DNA of 42,372 nucleotides. It comes from Bifidobacteriaceae bacterium. Lineage in GTDB: Bacteria; Actinomycetota; Actinomycetes; Actinomycetales; Bifidobacteriaceae. The translations under genes were made by a program, and so were the position numbers. The notes below the pieces were generated by a model, which did no database searches, had not been told where the DNA came from, and was given only the letters and a program-made list of their open reading frames with translations. Within the stretch, counting starts at the first letter, position 1; each line of letters begins with the position of its first letter. The stretch is from contig JAQXZM010000108.1 in the NCBI GenBank assembly GCA_029227215.1, positions 1 to 42,372 on the forward strand, given 5' to 3'. Shown in pieces: positions 134 to 11,653 of the stretch.

Positions 134-409
134 AACGAATATATATGGTACACCGTCACGGCAGCAGCTCGTGTCGCGCAACCATGCGTTCGCAACGACA
201 GCAATCAAGGTAGTCGCATTGATAGAGCGCAGCATCGGCGTGTCTCAAATTTGCCTCGCGCGGAAGACCTCGTAGACTTCAAGGAAGCGGAAAATCTAGC
301 AATCCGTTGGGGAATTGGATCCCAGGGGACACTGTCAAACATTCCGTTTTCTTTTTACAAACAGCACATCGCCGCGCAGACACGAATTCGTCCCATGTAT
401 CATGATGAC

Positions 410-518
410 CAGACGAAGGCCAGTGCTACTTTCCGTTTCACGGATTGGGCCGAAGTCGAAATGGCAACATGCTGCACCTTTTCTTGCAAGGCCGGGTTCC
501 ACAAGCCCTCGGTCTTTC
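410..518 (+). ncRNA. Candidate small RNA, copy A of a three-copy family
   Basis: This is the first of three related ~110-120 nt elements (A here, B at 940, C at 1195). It opens with CAGACGAAGGCCAGTGCTAC, shared with copy C. A small hairpin CCGT-TTC-ACGG, the block ATTGGGCCGA and a larger 3' hairpin (about 487-517) follow. A -10-like hexamer TATCAT sits at 398-403, six bases before the proposed first base, the same spacing as in B and C. No -35 box is recognisable. No reading frame is conserved among the copies, so a structured RNA fits better than a peptide. The 3' hairpin is bulged and lacks a clean T run, so this copy may be decayed. RNA status and direction are inferences. Confidence 0.45.
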
Positions 519-639
519 AAGATTCCGCGCGATTCCATGTGAGAACCGCGATATTCTCAACTTGCCGCACGGATCTTCACGGCCAAACGAGAGTGATGAG
601 GGCGCGCCCCCGCGAACGGGAACGCGCCCCGCGGACCGC

Positions 640-795
640 CTAACGGCGCCCGCCCCTCCCTGTCAGCCACATCACGGAGACGAGGCAGACGACGTCCACC
701 ACGCCCGTGTCGGCCTTCAGCACCGCCGCGGTCACCAGGACCGCAAGCAGAACGAGGGTAGGGCCGTCATGCGGCCCGCTACTGTGAAAGTGCAT
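640..795 (-). CDS. Small membrane protein, 51 aa, unknown function
   Basis: A short frame starts with ATG at 795, preceded by a good ribosome binding site (GAAGGAG, 6 bases before the start). The product has a polar N-terminus (MHFHSSGPHDG), a hydrophobic segment at about residues 13-26 (TLVLLAVLVTAAVL), a short KADTG break, a second hydrophobic stretch at about 32-44 ending in MWL, and a basic tail GRGGRR. This is a plausible small membrane protein with one long or two short helices and the basic tail inside. A strong 8-bp hairpin, GCCGCGCC/GGCGCGGC (817-840), lies in its leader. It sits alone between small-RNA copies A and B. No family was recognised. It could be chance, but the binding site, hydropathy and basic tail argue for a real gene. 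Confidence 0.5.
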   Translation of the reverse strand: MHFHSSGPHDGPTLVLLAVLVTAAVLKADTGVVDVVCLVSVMWLTGRGGRR

Positions 796-939
796 AGAGC
801 ACTCCTTCGTCATTCTGCCGCGCCGCGCAAACGGCGCGGCTACGGCACGCCCTCCTCATGGATGACGCGGCTTCGGCGAGGGTCGCTACTCCTTGCCTTG
901 GCACGGAAAATTCTACAGGATTCGTGCTAGACTTACGAA

Positions 940-1060
940 AGATCAAGGCCGTCGCTAACATCCGCATATGCGGGTGGTGCCGAGATTCAGGATGGACCGT
1001 GAAAGCCATCCCCTTCGTCAAGGGCCAGGTTCCGTAAGGATCCCGGCCCTGATTTTTCTT
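940..1060 (+). ncRNA. Candidate small RNA, copy B of the three-copy family
   Basis: The second copy is the most diverged in its 5' part, keeping only AAGGCC near the start, but it has the best 3' end. The hairpin AAGGGCC...GGCCCT (about 1020-1050) is followed by GATTTTTCTT, a convincing intrinsic terminator on the plus strand. The small internal hairpin is CCGC-ATAT-GCGG, where copy A has CCGT/ACGG and copy C has CCGC/GCGG: the stem is kept although its bases change. A further hairpin GGATGG/CCATCC occupies the middle. A -10-like TAGACT (928-933), preceded by TG one base earlier (extended -10), lies six bases before the proposed start. The assignment rests on comparison with the other two copies. 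Confidence 0.5.
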
Positions 1061-1194
1061 AACGTCACAACTCCGTGTCGGGCGGTTCTATGCCGTATAA
1101 AAGCCGAATAGGGGGACGACAGACTTTTCGCCACTGACCACGGTCGCGCCCCCAAACAGACCCTCCGGGCCAGACGTACCAGTAAGATGTGCAT

Positions 1195-1312
1195 CAGACG
1201 AAGGCCAGTGCTACTTTCCGCTTGTGCGGATTGGGCCGACGTCCATCTCGGAACATTTTCATCCTGTGTCCAAGGGCTGGGGTCCGCAAGGGCTCCGGCC
1301 CTTGACTTTCCC
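1195..1312 (+). ncRNA. Candidate small RNA, copy C of the three-copy family
   Basis: The third copy shares CAGACGAAGGCCAGTGCTAC, a small hairpin (CCGC-TTGT-GCGG) and GATTGGGCCGA with copy A. Its 3' hairpin is the strongest: CAAGGGCTGGGG pairs with CTCCGGCCCTTG over 12 positions (1271-1304), including G-T pairs, and is followed by ACTTTCCC. A -10-like TAAGAT (1183-1188) lies six bases upstream. The distance from start to terminator hairpin is nearly the same as in copies A and B. It lies just upstream of the 3' end of the convergent TetM-like gene. No peptide of supportable length is conserved. Confidence 0.5.
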
Positions 1313-1439: not shown

Positions 1440-3770
1440 TCAAAAATCCCGCATCCCCGCCCACGCATAAGGCACATGCATGTGTGCGGGCACATCTCGC
1501 CACGGCACGGGGTAGCCGGCGCCGTGGGCGCAGAACACGGAATCCGGTGTGTTATCCAGATCGGCGACCGGATCGTAGCCTGCCTCCGCAACCACCGCCT
1601 CCTCATCGTGGCAGGGGCGATACCCGGCGAACGTGCATACCAGGCGGCCGGTGCCGTGGGTGAAGGCATTGACTTCCATCGCATAATCGCGCATCTGACT
1701 GACCGGCGCCTTGCCGACCACCACTGCAGTGCCGACGCCCGCCGCATCAGCGCCCGCCATGCCAGCGCCGCTGCCCGTGCCCGCATCCATCTCGAACTCG
1801 CCGCCCATGCGCTGCACGTCGGACATCACACGCCCCACGCAATCGCCCGGCACCTCGATGCGGAACGCATACCATGGCTCGAGCACACGGCACGCGCCAC
1901 GCTGCTTGAGCTCCATGAGGCCTTGCCGCACCGCGCGGTACGTCGCCTGGCGGAAGTCGCCACCCTCGGTGTGCTTCAGGTGCGCACGACCGGCGACGAG
2001 CGTGAGCTTCACATCGGTGAGCGGCGCTCCGATGAGCACGCCCAGGTGCTCCCTCTCCCCCAAATGCGTCACCACCAGGCGCTGCCAGTTGCGCGACAGC
2101 ACATCTTCGCTCAGGTTCGCGCCCACCAGCACCCCGCTGCCCGGCTCCCCCGGCTCGATGAGGATGTGCGCCTCGGCGTAATGCCGCAACGGCTCGAAGT
2201 GCCCCACGCCTTCCACGGCACGGGTCACGGTCTCCTTGTACAGGATCCCGCCGCGCCCGAAGTCCACGTCGATGCCGAAACGCTCGTGCAGCGCCTGGCG
2301 AATCACATCGAGTTGCACGTCGCCCATCAGCTGCACGTGCACCTCCTGCAGCCGCTCCACCCATGCCACGCGCAGCAGCGGTTCCTCGTCCTCAAGCTCG
2401 CGCAACGCCGCGATGAGCTTGTGCAAGGTGTTCTCGTCAAACTGCGGTGCCGGCTTGGCGTCTGACGTGGTGGAATCCCCGGCGGCTGCTTTCCCTTCAG
2501 CGGTGCTATCGCTTTCTGTACCGGATGATTGCTGCGCCGAGCCATCCGCACCGCCGCGATGCCCTTCATGCGCGGGCTTGGCCTCGCCAGCGCCAGGCGG
2601 CAGCACCGCGTAGGTAAGCACGGGCTGGAGCACAGGCGCCCCCGCATCCGGCTCGAATCCCAAGCCCTGCCCAGGGAACGTGTGCTCCGGCCCGGCAATC
2701 GCGCACACCGCGCCAACGGGCACCTGCGTCGCCACCTCGAACTTGGCTCCGTTGTAGATGCGGACCTGGTCGATCTTCTCGCACATCGCATCATCACGTT
2801 CCGCGGAATCATCCGCGGAATCATCTGGTGCATCGAGACCATCTCCCCCGCCGGGCACTTCGCGCAGCATCTGCTTGGCGAACAGACCGCCGCCCGTCAC
2901 ACGCAGCCAGGTGAGCCGATTGTGCCGTTCGTCATGCGAGATGCGATACACCCGCGCGCCAAAACGCCGCGGGCGCGGCACCTCGACCATCCACCGGTCG
3001 AGCCCATCAAGGAATTCCGCCACACCCTCCATGCGCAGCGCCGAACCGAAATACACGGGGAACACGCGCCGCTTCGCAATGAGCCCGCGCACCGTTGCCT
3101 CGCCCAGCGTGCCGGTCTCGAGGAACTCGTCCATCGCTTGCTCGCTTTGCATCGCCATGTCCTCGACGCACGCCGCAATGCCAGCATCAAAAGCGGCATC
3201 CGCGCCATCAGCCGAAGCAGTTGCTGCAGCCAGAGCACCGCCTCCCAGCGGCATCATCGCGTCAGACAGCCGCGAGCGCAGCTGCGCCAGCACCGCATCG
3301 CGGTCGGCTCCGGGCGCATCCATCTTGTTGACGAACACGAACACCGGTACCTGGTACCGCGCGAGCAGCCGCCACAACGTCTCGGTGTGGCCTTGCACGC
3401 CGTCCGTGCCGGAGACCACCAGGATCGCGTAGTCAAGCACGCGCAGCACGCGCTCGGTGTCGGCGGCGAAATCCACATGCCCCGGGGTGTCGAGCAGCGT
3501 GAGGTCGAGCCTGCCGTGGCGGATGCTCGCCTGATGCGCGTGGATGGTGATGCCGCGCTTCTTCTCCATCGCCTCAGGGTCCAGGAACGCATCGCCGTGG
3601 TCCACGCGCCCCACGGCGCGCAACTGCCCCGCCGCGTAGAGCAGCGCCTCGGAGAGCGTGGTCTTGCCGGCATCCACATGCGCCACGATGCCCGCCACCA
3701 CATGCTTGATGCCCGCATGGTCGGTGGCGGAAGGGGAATTCACAGAGGCGGAATCAGTCATACGCCCCAT
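1440..3770 (-). CDS. TetM/TetO-like ribosome-binding translational GTPase
   Basis: This is an EF-G-like GTPase of the tetracycline ribosomal-protection superfamily, expected to bind the ribosomal A site in the cytosol. The G motifs are intact: AHVDAGKTT (G1), DTPGH (G3) and NKMD (G4). EF-G domains II-V follow. The protein is about 776 aa, longer than the ~640 of Tet(M), mainly through a low-complexity Ser/Gly/Asp-rich linker before domain III and another Gly/Ala-rich insert near the C-terminus. The ATG at 3770 is chosen because GGTGGGG precedes it at good spacing and because a hairpin (3781-3798) lies just upstream. In domain IV the tip reads HLKHTEGGDFRQATYRA, not the YSPVSTPADF-like loop of Tet(M). 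Tetracycline resistance should therefore not be assumed; another ribosome-rescue or stress role is possible. Confidence 0.85.
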   Translation of the reverse strand: MGRMTDSASVNSPSATDHAGIKHVVAGIVAHVDAGKTTLSEALLYAAGQLRAVGRVDHGDAFLDPEAMEKKRGITIHAHQASIRHGRLDLTLLDTPGHVDFAADTERVLRVLDYAILVVSGTDGVQGHTETLWRLLARYQVPVFVFVNKMDAPGADRDAVLAQLRSRLSDAMMPLGGGALAAATASADGADAAFDAGIAACVEDMAMQSEQAMDEFLETGTLGEATVRGLIAKRRVFPVYFGSALRMEGVAEFLDGLDRWMVEVPRPRRFGARVYRISHDERHNRLTWLRVTGGGLFAKQMLREVPGGGDGLDAPDDSADDSAERDDAMCEKIDQVRIYNGAKFEVATQVPVGAVCAIAGPEHTFPGQGLGFEPDAGAPVLQPVLTYAVLPPGAGEAKPAHEGHRGGADGSAQQSSGTESDSTAEGKAAAGDSTTSDAKPAPQFDENTLHKLIAALRELEDEEPLLRVAWVERLQEVHVQLMGDVQLDVIRQALHERFGIDVDFGRGGILYKETVTRAVEGVGHFEPLRHYAEAHILIEPGEPGSGVLVGANLSEDVLSRNWQRLVVTHLGEREHLGVLIGAPLTDVKLTLVAGRAHLKHTEGGDFRQATYRAVRQGLMELKQRGACRVLEPWYAFRIEVPGDCVGRVMSDVQRMGGEFEMDAGTGSGAGMAGADAAGVGTAVVVGKAPVSQMRDYAMEVNAFTHGTGRLVCTFAGYRPCHDEEAVVAEAGYDPVADLDNTPDSVFCAHGAGYPVPWRDVPAHMHVPYAWAGMRDF

Positions 3771-3780
3771 ATTCGCCCCA

Positions 3781-3912
3781 CCCGCCGATTTTGGCGGGCT
3801 CACATGCCATGTTTGACAACAACAGACATTCCCATATGATTGTCAGCTTCCATTCTGATAATCAGATTATTCTTACGGGTATAATACTCATGAGAATAAT
3901 ACTCATAAGAAT
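3781..3912 (-). promoter_or_regulatory. Operator-rich leader of the TetM-like gene
   Basis: The AT-rich leader has three recognisable parts. The unit AATACTCATGAGAAT at 3883-3897 is repeated immediately as AATACTCATAAGAAT at 3898-3912, and a related inverted unit, ATTCTTACGGGTATA, lies at 3869-3883. A 13-bp palindrome TCTGATAATCAGA lies at about 3855-3867. Next to the start codon, a CCCGCC-GATTTT-GGCGGG hairpin (3781-3798) could affect initiation or attenuate transcription. AT-rich -10-like sequences such as TATTAT occur within the repeats on the minus strand. Leader-mediated control is known for tet(M)-type genes; whether it applies here is inference. Confidence 0.45.
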
Positions 3913-4140: not shown

Positions 4141-4623
4141 TCAGGCGCCCAGCCGTCCGCGCACTTCCATGAGCGCATAACCCAGCAGGTTCTGCCCGCG
4201 CCAAGCCGTGGGATCAAGCCGCTCAGGATCATGCATCGACAGCCCGATGCCCCAGACGCGATCCTTCACCGCACACTCGGCGAGCAGTGCGTCGCCGGTC
4301 GCCGCAAGCCGCTCCCCCAGCTCCTTGTTCTGCTCGAACTTGGCGACAAGGCCTCGATAGACCTCGATCTGCCGCACTCCGTTCCACATATGGTCGTCGT
4401 AATCTGTCACAAGGCGCCCCAGTGCCTTGATGCGCGCCACGTCATCGGTGCCGAGAATCTCCTGCGCCGTCTTGGCATCGTGGAAGCACACCGCCTTGCG
4501 GTACATCATGTACTGCTCCATCGAAGAGAACTCCACGCCATCGACCACGAATTGTGAGGAGTACCAGTTGCTCAGATACCCGTTCTCCTCATCCGGGTTA
4601 TGGAAGCACATGACCTCACTCAT
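4141..4623 (-). CDS. NADAR (YbiA-like) ADP-ribose hydrolase
   Basis: The product is a full-length 160-aa NADAR-domain protein. Family hallmarks run throughout: LSNWY near residue 17, FSSMEQYMMYRKA, KALGR, GLVAKFEQN, CAVKDRVWGIGLS and GQNLLGYALMEVR. NADAR proteins cleave the N-glycosidic bond of ADP-ribosylated small molecules and, in characterised toxin-antitoxin pairs, remove ADP-ribose from guanine bases of DNA. Its start overlaps the preceding stop (ATGAGTGA, 4616-4623), so it is translationally coupled to the upstream gene. It is third in a minus-strand operon that begins with an ADP-ribosyltransferase-fold protein. An antitoxin or reversal role is inferred from that pairing; a riboflavin-intermediate clean-up role is the alternative. 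Confidence 0.88.
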   Translation of the reverse strand: MSEVMCFHNPDEENGYLSNWYSSQFVVDGVEFSSMEQYMMYRKAVCFHDAKTAQEILGTDDVARIKALGRLVTDYDDHMWNGVRQIEVYRGLVAKFEQNKELGERLAATGDALLAECAVKDRVWGIGLSMHDPERLDPTAWRGQNLLGYALMEVRGRLGA

Positions 4624-5080
4624 CCCGCACGCCTTTCGTCAAATTCGCATCCGGCACCCCAACCTTCTGTACCGCAAGATCGAGATCCAGATCATGAAGA
4701 CCGAAGTACGCCTTCTCCAAGAAGGCAACAGGCACCAAACGAATCACCTCAGCGCTGGGAATCGCGTAATACCATTGGTAATACGCATAGAATTCCCCCA
4801 TCCAGTCAGGCATGAATCCCTCGAGGGCCTTGCCTGGTTTCACACGATAGTCCTCAGTCCGAGTGAAATACTCCCAGAGCTCACGAGCGGTCATCGTGGA
4901 AACGTATGCCTGCGCATGGTCGATATCCGCACGCGTGTGGCTCTTCATGTAGGCTTCGATGAAATCTTCGGTGCTTCCAGCAGGAAAGGACTGCGCAACA
5001 AAATCGAACAGTTTGCCCTGCGCTTCCACCACTGCGTCTCGGTAAACCTCTGGATACGCCCGTATCATCACAGTTTGCAT
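4616..5080 (-). CDS. Unknown helical protein between the ADP-ribosyltransferase and NADAR genes
   Basis: The 154-aa product has no family I can name with certainty. The ATG at 5080 is chosen because AAGGAGG lies five bases before it; an upstream in-frame start at 5113 lacks such a site and would overlap the previous gene. The sequence looks alpha-helical and soluble, with aromatic-rich segments (ELWEYFTRTEDY, YAYYQWYYAIPS) and an acidic C-terminal part (GLHDLDLDLAVQKVG). There is no signal peptide, membrane segment or obvious DNA-binding motif. It is separated by 10 bases from the upstream gene and overlaps the downstream one by 8, so all three are co-translated. It may be an adaptor, partner or neutraliser of the ADP-ribosyltransferase-like protein, which would make this a three-part system. 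Confidence 0.75.
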   Translation of the reverse strand: MQTVMIRAYPEVYRDAVVEAQGKLFDFVAQSFPAGSTEDFIEAYMKSHTRADIDHAQAYVSTMTARELWEYFTRTEDYRVKPGKALEGFMPDWMGEFYAYYQWYYAIPSAEVIRLVPVAFLEKAYFGLHDLDLDLAVQKVGVPDANLTKGVRDE

Positions 5081-5090
5081 CCTGCCTCCT

Positions 5091-5732
5091 TCACAGCAAT
5101 GTGCTGAACACATGCGTCACGGTGTTTGCATCGGAATTGATGAGGTCGTGCATGCGTTGACGCGCCGCAACATCCCGAGTGTTGTACAAATCATTGAATT
5201 CGCGATAATCGACCGGCATCAGACCTTGCGGGACCTCAGACAGCTGGTCATATGCGCGCTGCGACTTGACGCAATACTGAATTCCCAACCCGCCTAAGGA
5301 GAGCAGCTCTTCGAGGATGTCCACATCCACATTGTCGCGCACGAATTCCTTCGCAATGTAAAAATACGAAGCGTTGGCCCGCCATCCCTTGATGACATCC
5401 GCGCCACTGGTGTCGATGCCATACTTGGCGATGAACTTTTTCGAGAGCACTCGGTATCGCTTGGAATCATCCGCGTCGCGATGCTTCATGAGCTCCGCAA
5501 GCCAAACGAGCACATCATGGTCCTGAAAATCCAGGACCGTAAGCCCATCGGTATCGAGCTCATATTCATGCACCCATCCATTGGATTCATCGGGCCGGCA
5601 CACTGCCCATTCCTTCGCAAGCTCGATATCCGCGGTCAGATAGAACCCACGGCCATAGTCGTGCTTGTCCTTGCCCAGGCCGAACTGTGGAGTCACCACT
5701 TTGTTGGGCGAACCATGGAACAACGTAATCAT
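5091..5732 (-). CDS. DUF3990 protein, ADP-ribosyltransferase fold (putative toxin)
   Basis: The 213-aa product opens with ITLFHGSPNKVV and continues DYGRGFYLTADIELAKEWA. These are the DUF3990 signatures and match the first two catalytic segments of ADP-ribosyltransferases: His in FHGS, and Tyr in GFYLT followed by a helix. DUF3990 belongs to the ADP-ribosyltransferase clan; its substrate is not established. A NAD-binding enzyme that modifies nucleic acid or protein is inferred. The ATG at 5732 has TAGGTG upstream; a GTG two codons earlier is possible. It is the first gene of a tight operon ending in an ADP-ribose hydrolase, a toxin-first, antidote-last order. The region upstream (5739-5934) holds a repeat rather than an obvious strong promoter. 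Confidence 0.8.
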   Translation of the reverse strand: MITLFHGSPNKVVTPQFGLGKDKHDYGRGFYLTADIELAKEWAVCRPDESNGWVHEYELDTDGLTVLDFQDHDVLVWLAELMKHRDADDSKRYRVLSKKFIAKYGIDTSGADVIKGWRANASYFYIAKEFVRDNVDVDILEELLSLGGLGIQYCVKSQRAYDQLSEVPQGLMPVDYREFNDLYNTRDVAARQRMHDLINSDANTVTHVFSTLL

Positions 5733-7011: not shown

Positions 7012-9330
7012 TCAAGCGTCAGGATGAGCATGCTGAGTGAGCCTGGCGTATGCGTCGAGCATGAAAGCGGTGATCTGCTTGCCATCCGCCGCCATGAGCA
7101 TCGGCATCGAATTGATGGGCATGGATTTGAGGAACATGCGCATCATGTCGGTGTCGGGCAGCTTCGGCAGCGTGCCCTCCTCACCCGCACGTTCCACGGC
7201 GGCGACGACCTGCGCGCCGAACGGATCGGCTTCCCATTCGCCGAAGCTTGACCATTCGGTGAGCGGCAGCGTCTTGCCGTCGCCATCGAGGTTCACAGGC
7301 ACAGTGGCGGCGATGTCACGGCTCGAGGTACCCACCTCGATGCCGTACTCCCCAGCCTCCACATGCCAGTCGTTGTATTTTTCGGACCAGTAGGCGAATG
7401 CCCGCTCATCCAGGTCGATGGCGACCTGCGCCGCCTCGCCCGCCTTGAGGAACACCTTCACAAAGCCTTTGAGCTCGTGCGCGGGGCGTGCCACCGCCGC
7501 CTTGCCTGGGGCAACGTAGACCTGCACGGTCTCGGCGCCGTCCACACCGGACGTGTTGCGCACGGTGGCGGTCACACGTGCCGTGTTCGCGCCGGTCTTG
7601 GCGACCTGCACGTCGGAAATCGCGAAACGCGCGTAGCTCATGCCGAAACCGAACGGGTAATCGACGGCCTTGCGGTAGGTGTCGTAGTAGCGATAGCCGA
7701 CGAACACGCCTTCGCCGTAATCCACATGGCCTTCCTCGCCAGGCCAGTTGACCATGCTCGGGTCGTCGTTGATATCCAAGGGAATCGTCTGGGCGAGCTT
7801 GCCCGACGGGCTCACGTCACCGAAGATCACGTCCGCGAGCGCCGCTCCCCCGGCCTGCCCCAGCAGCCAGGATTCGAGGATCGCCTTGGCATGCTGTGCC
7901 CATGGCGCGATGGAGACGACGGAGCCGTTGGAGAGCACGACCGCGACGTTTGGATTCGCCGCAGCGACCTCGCGGAGCAGTTCGATTTGCTTGGCGGGGA
8001 TGTCGAGGCTCGTGCGGTCGAAGCCTTCGGATTCGGCGGCTTCGGGCAGCCCCAGGAACATGAGCACCACGTCGGCGCCTCGCGCTGCGGCGACCGCCTG
8101 CTGCTCGAGCGCAGGATCGGCGGGCTCGAGGTCGAGCGTGAAACCGGGCGCGAAGTCGGCGGCGATGCCACGCTCGGCGAGCGCGTCGAGGAAGCTCGTC
8201 ATCCGCGTGGGCGTGATATGCGAGGAGCCGCCGCCCTGGTAGCGCGGCGTGCGGGCGAATTCGCCGATGACGGCGATTGAAGCACCGGGCTTCACCGGCA
8301 GGATCGCGTCGCCGTCCGCCCCGTCATCGTTCTTGAGCATAACGATGGATTCGCGGGCCGCCTCGCGGGCGACCTCATGGTGCGCCGCCACGTCGTAGCG
8401 GTAGCCCTCGCGGCTCATCGCGGGCCGTGCCTTGGAGACCAAGTCAATCATGCCCTGCGCCATGCGGTCGAGCTGCTCGGGGCGGATGCGCCCGTCGCGC
8501 GCCGCGTAGACGATTTCGTCGTCGGTGCCGCTGGGCGGCATCTCGAGGTTGAGACCGGCATTGAGGGAGGCGACGCGGTCGTGGTCGGCGCCCCAGTCGC
8601 TCATGACAATGCCTTGGAAGCCCCATTCGCCGCGCAACACGTCGGTGAGCAACCACTGGTTCTGCGCCGAGTGCACGCCGTTGATGCGGTTGTAGGAGCA
8701 CATGACCGTCCATGGCTGGGCGGTCTTGACAATGTGCTCGAACGCGGGGAAGTAAATCTCGCGCAGCGCGCGCTGCGACACGTTCGCGCTGATACGCAGG
8801 CGGTCGGTCTCCTGGTTGTTGACGGCGAAATGCTTGAGAGACGTGCCGATGCCCCGGGACTGCACACCCTCGACGATGCCCACCGCCTCATGGCCGGCGA
8901 GGTACGGGTCCTCCGACCAGTATTCGAAGCAGCGGCCGCCCAGCGGGTTGCGCTTGATGTTGACGCCCGGGCCCAGGATCACGGCGACCTTCTCTTGGAT
9001 GCACTCCTCGCCCATCGCCACGCCGACGCGGCGCACGATGTCCGGATTCCACGAACTCGAGAGCCCCGCCGCGGGCGGGAAGCAGGTGGCGGGCACCGAG
9101 TCCCCCAGATCGGTCTCGCCCGTACTGGTCTCTTCCTGGTCGGCGCCGCGCGCCTTACGCAGGCCATGGGGCCCGTCGGTGATCATGTAGCCGGGGATCC
9201 CCTTGCTTTCCACGCCTTGCAGGTGCCAGGCATCGGCCCCGGACGTGAGGGATGCTTTCTCTTCGAGCGTCAGGTCCTTCACGCTCGGGTACGTTGATCG
9301 GTCCTGTGTGGATGCGTTGCCGTTGCCCAT
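7012..9330 (-). CDS. Glycoside hydrolase family 3 beta-glucosidase
   Basis: This 772-aa cytosolic GH3 enzyme hydrolyses terminal beta-glycosidic bonds. The N-terminal TIM-barrel shows LTLEEKASLTSG, GPGVNIKRNPLGGRCFEYWSEDP and VMSDWGAD, whose Asp is the family nucleophile. The alpha/beta sandwich domain follows, with a conserved ESEGFDRTSLDIPAKQ segment expected to carry the acid/base Glu. The fibronectin-like domain closes the protein (YVAPGKAAVARPAHELKGF...). No signal peptide or PA14 insert is seen. The ATG at 9330 (or the adjacent one at 9333) follows AAAGGGG; an upstream frame extension is repeat-derived and lacks support. It is a single-gene unit; probable substrates are imported beta-gluco-oligosaccharides or plant glucosides, but specificity cannot be read from sequence. 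Confidence 0.93.
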   Translation of the reverse strand: MGNGNASTQDRSTYPSVKDLTLEEKASLTSGADAWHLQGVESKGIPGYMITDGPHGLRKARGADQEETSTGETDLGDSVPATCFPPAAGLSSSWNPDIVRRVGVAMGEECIQEKVAVILGPGVNIKRNPLGGRCFEYWSEDPYLAGHEAVGIVEGVQSRGIGTSLKHFAVNNQETDRLRISANVSQRALREIYFPAFEHIVKTAQPWTVMCSYNRINGVHSAQNQWLLTDVLRGEWGFQGIVMSDWGADHDRVASLNAGLNLEMPPSGTDDEIVYAARDGRIRPEQLDRMAQGMIDLVSKARPAMSREGYRYDVAAHHEVAREAARESIVMLKNDDGADGDAILPVKPGASIAVIGEFARTPRYQGGGSSHITPTRMTSFLDALAERGIAADFAPGFTLDLEPADPALEQQAVAAARGADVVLMFLGLPEAAESEGFDRTSLDIPAKQIELLREVAAANPNVAVVLSNGSVVSIAPWAQHAKAILESWLLGQAGGAALADVIFGDVSPSGKLAQTIPLDINDDPSMVNWPGEEGHVDYGEGVFVGYRYYDTYRKAVDYPFGFGMSYARFAISDVQVAKTGANTARVTATVRNTSGVDGAETVQVYVAPGKAAVARPAHELKGFVKVFLKAGEAAQVAIDLDERAFAYWSEKYNDWHVEAGEYGIEVGTSSRDIAATVPVNLDGDGKTLPLTEWSSFGEWEADPFGAQVVAAVERAGEEGTLPKLPDTDMMRMFLKSMPINSMPMLMAADGKQITAFMLDAYARLTQHAHPDA

Positions 9331-9370
9331 CATCTGCCCCTTTCGGCATTCATCGCTGCAAGAATCCTCA

Positions 9371-9427
9371 ATGATTCCCACATCGCTTCTCATGATGATC
9401 ATTGCGATGATTCCCGCGATGATTCCC
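9371..9427. repeat. Tandem 12-bp repeat in the GH3 leader
   Basis: GCGATGATTCCC occurs twice in tandem (9404-9415 and 9416-9427), and ATGATTCCC recurs at 9371-9379. On the gene strand these read GGGAATCATCGC. They lie 40-100 bases upstream of the GH3 start, so they may be operator half-sites for a sugar-responsive regulator. No clear -35/-10 pair was found. Confidence 0.5.
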
Positions 9428-9493
9428 ATCGGCATTCTTCGTCGAACCATTGCATGCCATCATTCGAAGCTTACCAAATCCAGGAAATAGCAA

Positions 9494-9530
9494 ACGCCGC
9501 CACCCCCGCAGATCACAGGGGTGACGGCGT
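9494..9530 (-). terminator. Terminator of the ABC exporter operon
   Basis: ACGCCG-C-CACCCC pairs with GGGGTG-A-CGGCGT around a short loop. On the minus strand the hairpin is followed by T-rich sequence (TTTGCTATTTCC). It lies about 65 bases after the stop of the second ABC gene. A separate perfect palindrome, TGCAGATATCTGCA, lies at 9549-9562, of unknown role. Confidence 0.75.
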
Positions 9531-9595
9531 CACACAGCGGCGTCCAGCTGCAGATATCTGCAACGCAGGCCACCGTGCTACGGCCTCAGCGCGGC

Positions 9596-11653
9596 CTACT
9601 CGAGTTCGAGCGCGCCGGTGTAGAGCTGGTAGTACTCGCCCTTCTGCGCGATGAGCTCGTCATGGTTGCCGCGTTCGATGATGCGGCCATGGTCGAGCAC
9701 CATGATCACATCGGAGTTGCGCACCGTGGAAAGCCGGTGGGCGATGACGAACACCGTGCGGCCCTTCATGAGGTTGTCCATACCCTTCTGCACCACTTCC
9801 TCGGTGCGGGTGTCGATGGAGCTCGTCGCCTCGTCGAGGATCATGCACGGCGGGTCGGCGACGGCGGCGCGCGCGATGGAGATGAGCTGCCGCTGGCCTT
9901 GCGACAGGCCCGAGCCATCGCCGGAGAGCACGGTCTGGTAGCCGTTGGGCAGCATGCGGATGAAGCCATCGGCGTTCGTGAGCTTCGCCGCCTCGATGCA
10001 CTCCTCGTCGGTGGCGTCGAGCCTGCCGTAGCGGATGTTGTCCATCACGGTGCCGGTGAACAGGTTCACGTCCTGCAGCACGATGCCCAGCGAGCGGCGC
10101 AGGTCGGGCTTGCGGATGTTCTTCACATCGATGCCGTCATACAGGATCTGCCCCTCCTGCACGTCGTAGAAGCGGTTGATGAGGTTGGTCACCGTCGTCT
10201 TGCCCGCGCCGGTGGCGCCCACGAGCGCCATCTTCTGGCCAGGCTTGGCGAACCAGGTGATGTCGTGGAGCACCGGCTTGCCCGGCACGTAGCTGAAGGT
10301 CACGTCGGTGAAGCGCACGTCGCCGCGCAGCAGCGTGTAGCGGCCGTCCGGGGAGGTGATGGCCTGCTCCTTCGCCTTCATCGCCACCTCGCGTGCCGAG
10401 CCCTTGAGCTTGGCTGCGGCGGCGAGCGAGCGCGTGCCGTCATCGTCCGCGGCGCGCTTCCACGCCCAGTGGCCGGTCTCGCGGCGTGTCTCAGTCATCG
10501 TGCGGCCATCCTCGCCAAGCTCCACGTTGACGAGCGTCACGGAGCCGTTGTCCGACTCCACCGGCTCGTCCATGAGCGCGAAGATGCGGGAGGCGCCGGC
10601 GAGCGCCATGAGCACCATGTTGAACTGCATGGAGACCTGGCCCAGGGGGTTGAGGAAGCCCTTGACGAGGGTGAGCAGCGAGACGATGGTGCCCAGCGTC
10701 ATCGTGCTGGCGCCGGTGAGGCCCAGGCTCGGAAGCCCGGCGATGCCGACGGCGGCGCCTGCGACGGCGATGATGACGTAGAGCAGGTAGCCCATGTTGT
10801 TCACGATCGGCATCGTGATGTTGCCATAGGTGTTGGCGCGGGCCGCGGCGTCGAAGAGCTCCTCGTTCTTCTTGTCGAACTCGCGTTCGGTCGCCTCTTC
10901 GTGGTTGAAGACCTTGATGACCTTCTGCCCGTTGACGGCCTCCTCGACGAATGCGTTCACGTCGCCCAGCGACTTCTGCTGGCGCATGAAGTGGATGCCG
11001 CTGCGCTTGATGAGCTGGTTGACCATGAGGAACAGCACGATGGCGAAGACGAGCGAGAGCAGCCCGAAGGGCACCGAGAGGATGATCATGGCCACGAGGG
11101 ACGCGAACGAGCTGATGAGCGACGAGATCATCTGCGGGATGGACTGGGAGATCGCCTGGCGCAGCGTGTCGGTGTCGTTCGTGTAGCGGCTCATCACGTA
11201 ACCATGCTCATGGGTGTCGAAGTATCGGATCGGCAGACGTTGCTGGTGGGCAAACATGTCGTCGCGGATCGTCTTGAGCACGCCCTGCTCCACCTTGACG
11301 ACCATCCAGTTCCACAGCCAGACGCTGAACGTTCCCACCGCATAGAGCACGGCGAGCAGCGTGATGGCGTGGACGAGCGGCTGCCAGTCGGGGTTGGGCT
11401 GCCCCACGAGCGGCAGGATGTAGCGGTCGATGAGCTGCTGGAGGAACGCGATCGACACCGCCTGGCTCACCGCCATGACGATGATGGCGAGGAGGATCAC
11501 GACGACCTGCCACTTGTAGTGGAGGATGTAGCCCATGAGCCGCTTGGCGGTGCCGGGCGCGGGCCGGTCGCTACGCGGCTGTTTCTTCGCTGCATCGTTC
11601 GGATTCCGTGACTGCGAGGCTTGGGATCGCGATGCTGTCTGCGTCTTGCTCAT
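9596..11653 (-). CDS. ABC exporter subunit 2 (membrane plus ATPase, canonical catalytic Glu)
   Basis: The 685-aa half-transporter has a cytosolic N-terminus, a six-helix type IV exporter domain (about residues 40-350) and a nucleotide-binding domain. NBD motifs are GATGAGKTT (Walker A), GLSQGQRQL (signature), CMILDEATSS (Walker B with catalytic Glu) and VIAHRLS (switch His). The signature is LSQGQ instead of LSGGQ. A ~75-residue charged linker separates the membrane and ATPase parts. The start overlaps the previous stop (ATGA, 11650-11653), so the two ABC genes are coupled and the products are expected to form a heterodimer like LmrCD or TM287/288. Drug or lipid export is inferred from family and the MarR gene upstream. 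Confidence 0.92.
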   Translation of the reverse strand: MSKTQTASRSQASQSRNPNDAAKKQPRSDRPAPGTAKRLMGYILHYKWQVVVILLAIIVMAVSQAVSIAFLQQLIDRYILPLVGQPNPDWQPLVHAITLLAVLYAVGTFSVWLWNWMVVKVEQGVLKTIRDDMFAHQQRLPIRYFDTHEHGYVMSRYTNDTDTLRQAISQSIPQMISSLISSFASLVAMIILSVPFGLLSLVFAIVLFLMVNQLIKRSGIHFMRQQKSLGDVNAFVEEAVNGQKVIKVFNHEEATEREFDKKNEELFDAAARANTYGNITMPIVNNMGYLLYVIIAVAGAAVGIAGLPSLGLTGASTMTLGTIVSLLTLVKGFLNPLGQVSMQFNMVLMALAGASRIFALMDEPVESDNGSVTLVNVELGEDGRTMTETRRETGHWAWKRAADDDGTRSLAAAAKLKGSAREVAMKAKEQAITSPDGRYTLLRGDVRFTDVTFSYVPGKPVLHDITWFAKPGQKMALVGATGAGKTTVTNLINRFYDVQEGQILYDGIDVKNIRKPDLRRSLGIVLQDVNLFTGTVMDNIRYGRLDATDEECIEAAKLTNADGFIRMLPNGYQTVLSGDGSGLSQGQRQLISIARAAVADPPCMILDEATSSIDTRTEEVVQKGMDNLMKGRTVFVIAHRLSTVRNSDVIMVLDHGRIIERGNHDELIAQKGEYYQLYTGALELE

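Follow-up and report, generated by a model that had tools for sequence, protein, structure and literature searches.

A small hydrophobic protein gene on the minus strand of a bifidobacterial contig and the RNA gene that diverges from it, B, likely form a module resembling type I toxin-antitoxin systems, with two further copies of the RNA nearby, A and C, as orphan antitoxin-like copies. The stretch of DNA analyzed (the window, 42,372 nt) is contig 108 of a 2.0-Mb genome in 144 contigs that is 83% complete. Our reading builds on the homology and common fold of the RNAs, the homology of the protein and its leader, the divergent arrangement of the two genes, and the complementarity of the RNAs to their own messengers across loci.

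Table 1. Features of the module and of the RNA copies in the window
Feature	Positions	Strand	Basis and remarks
RNA gene A	408-519	+	paralogue, partner gene not found; CM R1 104 bits; alignment z 14.2 versus C
RNA gene B	938-1058	+	divergent, antitoxin-like partner of the small protein gene 643-795; CM R1 97 bits
RNA gene C	1193-1309	+	paralogue, partner gene not found; CM R1 126 bits
-10 box TATCAT of A	398-403	+	sequence and spacing
-10 box TAGACT of B, extended (TGC precedes)	928-933	+	sequence and spacing
-10 box TAAGAT of C	1183-1188	+	sequence and spacing
Terminal hairpin of A	488-516	+	fold
Hairpin GGATGG..CCATCC of B	990-1011	+	counterpart of the GGGGTGG..CCATCCCC hairpin in Bifidobacterium RNAs
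Antisense stretch of B, CCUUCGUCA	1012-1020	+	9/9 complementary to 812-804
Terminator hairpin of B, then T run	1021-1050	+	fold
Terminal hairpin of C, without T run	1272-1303	+	fold
Small hydrophobic protein gene, 51 aa	643-795	-	between A and B; member of a bifidobacterial family; overlooked in the sequence-only reading
Structured leader of the small protein messenger	796-905	-	extent deduced from the -10 box
Predicted RNA target UGACGAAGG	804-812	-	overlaps the Shine-Dalgarno sequence GAAGGAG, 802-808
Conserved leader hairpin GCCGCGCC..GGCGCGGC, beside the target site	817-840	-	leader profile
Candidate -10 box TGTAGAAT of the small protein gene	910-917	-	sequence reading; overlaps the B promoter region
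GC-rich terminator-like hairpin 3' of the small protein gene	600-630	-	minus-strand fold; strong

Three homologous RNA genes with a common fold

An earlier interpretation of the window made from its letters alone (the sequence-only reading) had described three related structured elements, and these are indeed homologous: local alignments judged against dinucleotide shuffles gave z values of 14.2 for A and C, 8.7 for B and C, and 5.7 for A and B, and 0 of 500 shuffles reached the observed score for any pair. With A as the query against the 2-Mb genome, C is matched at E 9e-12; C alone as the query reveals a fourth copy in Pseudoscardovia suis DSM 24744, the closest relative carrying one (G001:C1:207-323, E 9e-13), which places the window in a Pseudoscardovia genome within the Bifidobacteriaceae. 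From the start of C onward (1193-1380), the window is 75% identical to P. suis. What is conserved in A, B, and C is the 5' domain and the terminal hairpin; the variable part is the linker joining them.

When folded separately, the three window copies and the P. suis copy adopt one common shape. Of the 13 pairs in the 5' domain, four (7-49, 25-38, 28-35, 29-34) covary while remaining paired in each of the four sequences, compared with a background of 13 covarying among 1128 column pairs (P 7e-6). The compensating stem reported earlier (CCGT/ACGG, CCGC/GCGG) is real. The 3' hairpin reported with it is present in every copy and is followed by a T run in B only, and, just as had been claimed, the repeats share no reading frame and no conserved peptide. 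Wobble changes among the four copies produce G-U eight times and A-C once, so the RNA corresponds to the plus strand.

This strand preference bears on whether the repeats might be a DNA element, such as a transposon end or a recombination site, whose fold is incidental. Three copies do sit together in 900 bp of inserted DNA next to a tRNA gene; yet G-U is kept and A-C is not, as expected if a plus-strand RNA is under selection, the flanks beyond each transcription unit show no relationship as far as the -10 box (9-12 identities in 40 upstream bases), and the genome of the window holds no copies besides A, B, and C. We consider a DNA element highly improbable.

The -10 boxes had also been noted for their fixed spacing, and in A, B, C, and the P. 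suis copy (TAGGGT) the box lies exactly 4 nt upstream of model position 1; a TANNNT of such regularity in the three window copies has P ~1e-5. The sequence-only reading considered these boxes weak because no -35 box was evident. The -35 box is indeed missing, but this doubt was overstated: in Bifidobacterium breve, promoter mapping found strong conservation in the -10 box at T1, A2, and T6 alone and a weaker -35 box (PMC5746004), so its absence from A, B, and C is less damaging than was held. In B. breve, the ends of transcripts also often coincide with GC-rich stem-loops that do not count as rho-independent terminators (PMC5746004), and copies A and C, with a terminal hairpin and no T run, fit this pattern. 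The promoter box that is shared, TTCTACAGGAWTCGTGSTAG, has an 18/20 match located between lexA and a LysM gene, which we set aside as an ordinary promoter; this divergent promoter region of lexA and the LysM-domain gene (L178, G000:C95, 6400-6520) contains SOS-box-like sequences and a promoter spacer that agrees with that of B at 18 of 20 bases.

Searches by sequence added little to this set. Model R1, run against 189 Bifidobacteriaceae genomes and a wide sample of the order, returned nothing beyond A, B, C, and the P. suis copy; the best of its matches at 25-37 bits in Bifidobacterium were, on inspection, ordinary terminators, and what model R2, which covers the 5' domain, matched in nine genomes was a protein-coding repeat. 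At the gathering score, Rfam 15 recognized only tRNAs in the window and in 16 Bifidobacterium loci, and a lax Rfam search of 300-1450 gave chance matches only. We found no match for the three copies in Rfam or in phage, viral, and plasmid collections, and pattern scans of viral and genome collections returned P. suis and chance matches only. We rejected a riboswitch or attenuator, there being no gene downstream of A, B, or C on the plus strand. A covariance model searched across the bifidobacteria, the check proposed in the sequence-only reading, thus reached only the P. suis copy; the wider family surfaced only through the neighboring protein.

A divergent small protein gene and its bifidobacterial family

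The ATG of the gene at 643-795 is preceded by a Shine-Dalgarno sequence, GAAGGAG, at 802-808 on the minus strand. A single-sequence search with its product yielded weak Bifidobacterium relatives that proved on inspection to be true homologues, 51-53 residues long and with the same leader hairpin. A four-sequence protein profile recovered family members from 29 of the 189 Bifidobacteriaceae genomes, several of which have 2-5 copies each. As an independent test, we made protein and leader DNA profiles from the relatives only, with the window excluded. The protein profile ranks ORF 643-795 best of the 809 ORFs in the window (E 1.4e-8), and the top site of the leader profile in the 42 kb is 848-801 on the minus strand (E 1.5e-4).

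The family proteins are 49-58 residues long, the size of type I toxins (usually <60 residues), and their hydropathy peaks are mostly 1.4-2.7. AlphaFold, given the single sequence of the window protein, predicts one long helix spanning residues 10-47 (pLDDT 78). Searches of Pfam, NCBIfam, PHROGs, and PADLOC with this protein and its relatives gave only weak chance matches.

Nearly every family member faces a predicted RNA gene upstream on the opposite strand. RNAalifold on 16 of these loci yields one consensus fold in which 16 of 18 pairs covary; 85.6% of the pairs form, compared to 73.7% in shuffles, 0 of 500 shuffles match either the pairing or the covariation, and the fold outscores all slid versions of the alignment. 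It consists of an outer helix; an inner helix of two pairs, whose internal loop often contains GCTA; a third helix; and then a GGGGTGG..CCATCCCC hairpin. The RNA model also matches loci outside the training set at the divergent position (L218, L223, and L228 at 49-58 bits; L216 and L230 at 33 bits) and five plasmids (73-86 bits); at two loci, G126 and G127, a recognizable RNA is absent from the stretch read.

B has the same order of parts as the Bifidobacterium RNAs: AAGGC, GCTAAC, a hairpin, GCCGA, GGATGG..CCATCC, a short linker, and the terminator. The Bifidobacterium model R3 gives the window copies scores that are not significant (B 7.6, A 6.8, C 1.9 bits), so B is placed in the family by its position, its matching layout, and its complementarity, and A and C by their homology to B.

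These data bear on a view close to that of the sequence-only reading, in which A, B, and C are sibling small RNAs that act in trans on their own and the neighboring gene is incidental. That there are three copies and one partner gene fits such siblings, as do the failure of the Bifidobacterium model to recognize the window copies and the P. suis copy, which stands alone upstream of a zeta operon and near insertion-sequence-like repeats. We nevertheless give this view little credence: B sits where nearly every relative of the protein has its RNA, and it has the same helix order, the counterpart of the CCATCCCC hairpin, a complementary stretch, and a terminator. The LhrC1-5 RNAs come from multiple paralogous genes, differ in their single-stranded regions, and act on unlinked targets. 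Unlike these sibling small RNAs of Listeria (PMC5880928), nearly every bifidobacterial family RNA has a divergent partner gene. The earlier picture of independently transcribed, structured small RNAs is supported by the covariation, by wobble changes that favor one strand, by the spacing of the promoters, and by the terminal hairpin; what it overlooked is that B appears to be half of a two-gene module.

Complementarity between RNAs and their own messengers

In each RNA, the segment that separates CCATCCCC from the terminator includes a locus-specific stretch that complements its own messenger near the Shine-Dalgarno sequence. We compared every RNA region with every start region using a fixed ungapped score that allows G-U. 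Over 22 loci, the complementarity of own pairs totals 209.5, whereas the highest total among 20,000 permuted pairings is 175.5, and the opposite-strand control at the same loci shows no excess; when plasmids are included (26 loci), own pairs reach 250.5 versus 201.5. Examples are matches of 13/13 in pNAC3, 12/12 in G163:C3, and 9/9 in B. A simple duplex-energy scan of RNA against messenger performed no better than shuffles. The pairing sequence varies by locus with both sides changing together, which is intermolecular covariation.

The complementarity of B is just 9 nt long and was spotted prior to its test; a match of this length occurs in 2 of 300 shuffles of B, and the computed duplex energy is -15.5 kcal/mol. 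The reverse complements of the antisense stretches of A (GGCCTTGCAAGAAAAGGTGC) and of the P. suis copy (GGCCCTTCGAATTAGGACG) also appear to resemble family start regions; that of C is less clear. The stretches of A and C seem to point to other targets, so these copies look like orphan antitoxins; no partner gene for either was found in the 83% complete assembly. In P. suis, the expected partner site appears to be taken up by repeats resembling the end of an insertion sequence. The 5' ends of A and C also resemble, in the sense orientation, the region around the gene's Shine-Dalgarno sequence (GACGAAGG, z ~3), which is suggestive only.

These features suggest how the module could work. The gene at 643-795 would encode a 51-residue hydrophobic, putatively toxic membrane protein with a predicted single helix, and the structured leader of its messenger would keep a short stretch open between the strong hairpin and the start codon. 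B, which we infer to be transcribed from the divergent promoter, would present its conserved fold followed by a locus-specific single-stranded stretch before the terminator. Pairing of this stretch over the Shine-Dalgarno region would block ribosome loading and so repress the protein, and the duplex of B with the messenger would probably be marked for cleavage.

Plasmids, known systems and genomic setting

The module is carried by Bifidobacterium plasmids including pNAC1, pNAC3, pDOJH10L, and p1CACC514, where it adjoins replication or mobilization (Rep, Mob) genes and its protein is annotated as hypothetical; pNAC1, pNAC3, and pDOJH10L are small B. longum plasmids. In G163, a chromosomal module has a tyrosine recombinase gene as its neighbor, and ParA-like and zeta genes lie farther along. 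At this locus (L199, G163:C24), the recombinase gene (4473-5336) and the small protein gene are arranged tail to tail, and a gene of the zeta toxin family (8838-9824) follows about 3 kb on, a gene set that suggests a mobile element.

The RNA might instead control, at its start, a small membrane protein that is not toxic and serves the plasmid or mobile element in copy control, transfer, or the exclusion of related elements. The same pairing evidence applies to such a protein, and the genes do occur on small plasmids beside rep and mob and, in G163, near an integrase and a zeta toxin. But chromosomal copies are frequent, with up to five per genome, and type I toxins usually show this layout, in which a divergent antisense RNA accompanies a short hydrophobic product whose messenger has a structured leader (PMC4147584). 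On balance we think a non-toxic protein rather unlikely and favor the toxin-antitoxin-like module, which may help to maintain plasmids or mobile DNA.

Several known systems resemble this module. Like tisB/istR-1, shoB/ohsC, zorO/orzO, and dinQ/agrB of E. coli, it combines a short hydrophobic protein and a long structured 5' leader with a divergent RNA that has a short stretch complementary to the leader (PMC4147584); the RNAs of divergent systems of the tisB/IstR-1 type pair within the 5' leader (PMC4147584). Unlike this likeness in layout, a sequence relation to the E. coli systems was not found in Pfam or NCBIfam. The E. coli antitoxins pair upstream of the ribosome-binding site, at the standby site, whereas the bifidobacterial pairing covers or touches the Shine-Dalgarno region; its stretch, unlike theirs, lies between the conserved fold and the terminator and changes from locus to locus. 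The plasmid par locus (Fst, of pAD1) and hok/sok are plasmid-carried, RNA-controlled small hydrophobic toxins whose RNAs overlap or converge on the toxin gene. Both par (Fst, RNAI/RNAII of pAD1) and hok/sok are listed as type I (PMC4147584); in contrast to theirs, the bifidobacterial RNA diverges from the gene without overlap. In Salmonella, the small RNA TimR binds the timP messenger, which encodes a small membrane protein, and inhibits its translation (PMC7667032). By analogy, we predict the same kind of repression here; unlike the enterobacterial timP/TimR, the bifidobacterial module is plasmid-borne, multi-copy, found in Actinomycetota, and unrelated in sequence.

The literature that we searched describes no type I toxin-antitoxin family for bifidobacteria, and the module is so far unnamed; Rfam, Pfam, NCBIfam, and PADLOC include neither the RNA nor the protein. 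Should the protein be toxic, the module would help to account for the persistence of small B. longum plasmids and would be relevant to building vectors from plasmids like pNAC1, pNAC3, and pDOJH10L. Its loci also supply dozens of naturally occurring RNA-messenger pairs, matched and mismatched, on which pairing specificity could be studied. We raise as a tentative possibility that RNA-silenced small membrane toxins are widespread in bifidobacteria, both in chromosomes and in small plasmids, that the antisense stretch borne by the conserved RNA fold is exchangeable, and that the spare RNAs (A, C, and the P. suis copy) act as orphan antitoxins against addiction to incoming elements whose toxins they match.

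In the window, about 1.3 kb separates the tRNA-Arg(CCU) gene from a TetM-like gene, and this interval contains A, B, C, and the small protein gene; in P. suis, the two flanking genes lie within ~110 bp. The large gene at 1440-3803 on the minus strand encodes a TetM/TetW-like ribosomal-protection GTPase with 74% identity to its P. suis neighbor, beside the same tRNA-Arg. Because this gene is chromosomal in both genomes, its recent acquisition as a resistance gene is improbable.

In P. suis, genes for a putative antitoxin and a zeta-type toxin (L080, P. suis C1, 435-1699) have the RNA copy immediately upstream. A link between the RNA and this operon was rejected, other zeta loci of the family being without the RNA. 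The ~70 bp 3' of the P. suis RNA have a conserved counterpart in the window at 1310-1380, which would fit a loss of the zeta operon there. A second structured element is common only to the window (285-356) and L080 (1831-1902): a long hairpin closed by CGGAA..TTCCG and followed by TTTTCTTTTT, probably a terminator belonging to the same mobile DNA. Further along L080 (4100-5300), a long degenerate repeat array of the type GAGGGTGCAC..GTGCACCCTC lies beside an MFS transporter gene.
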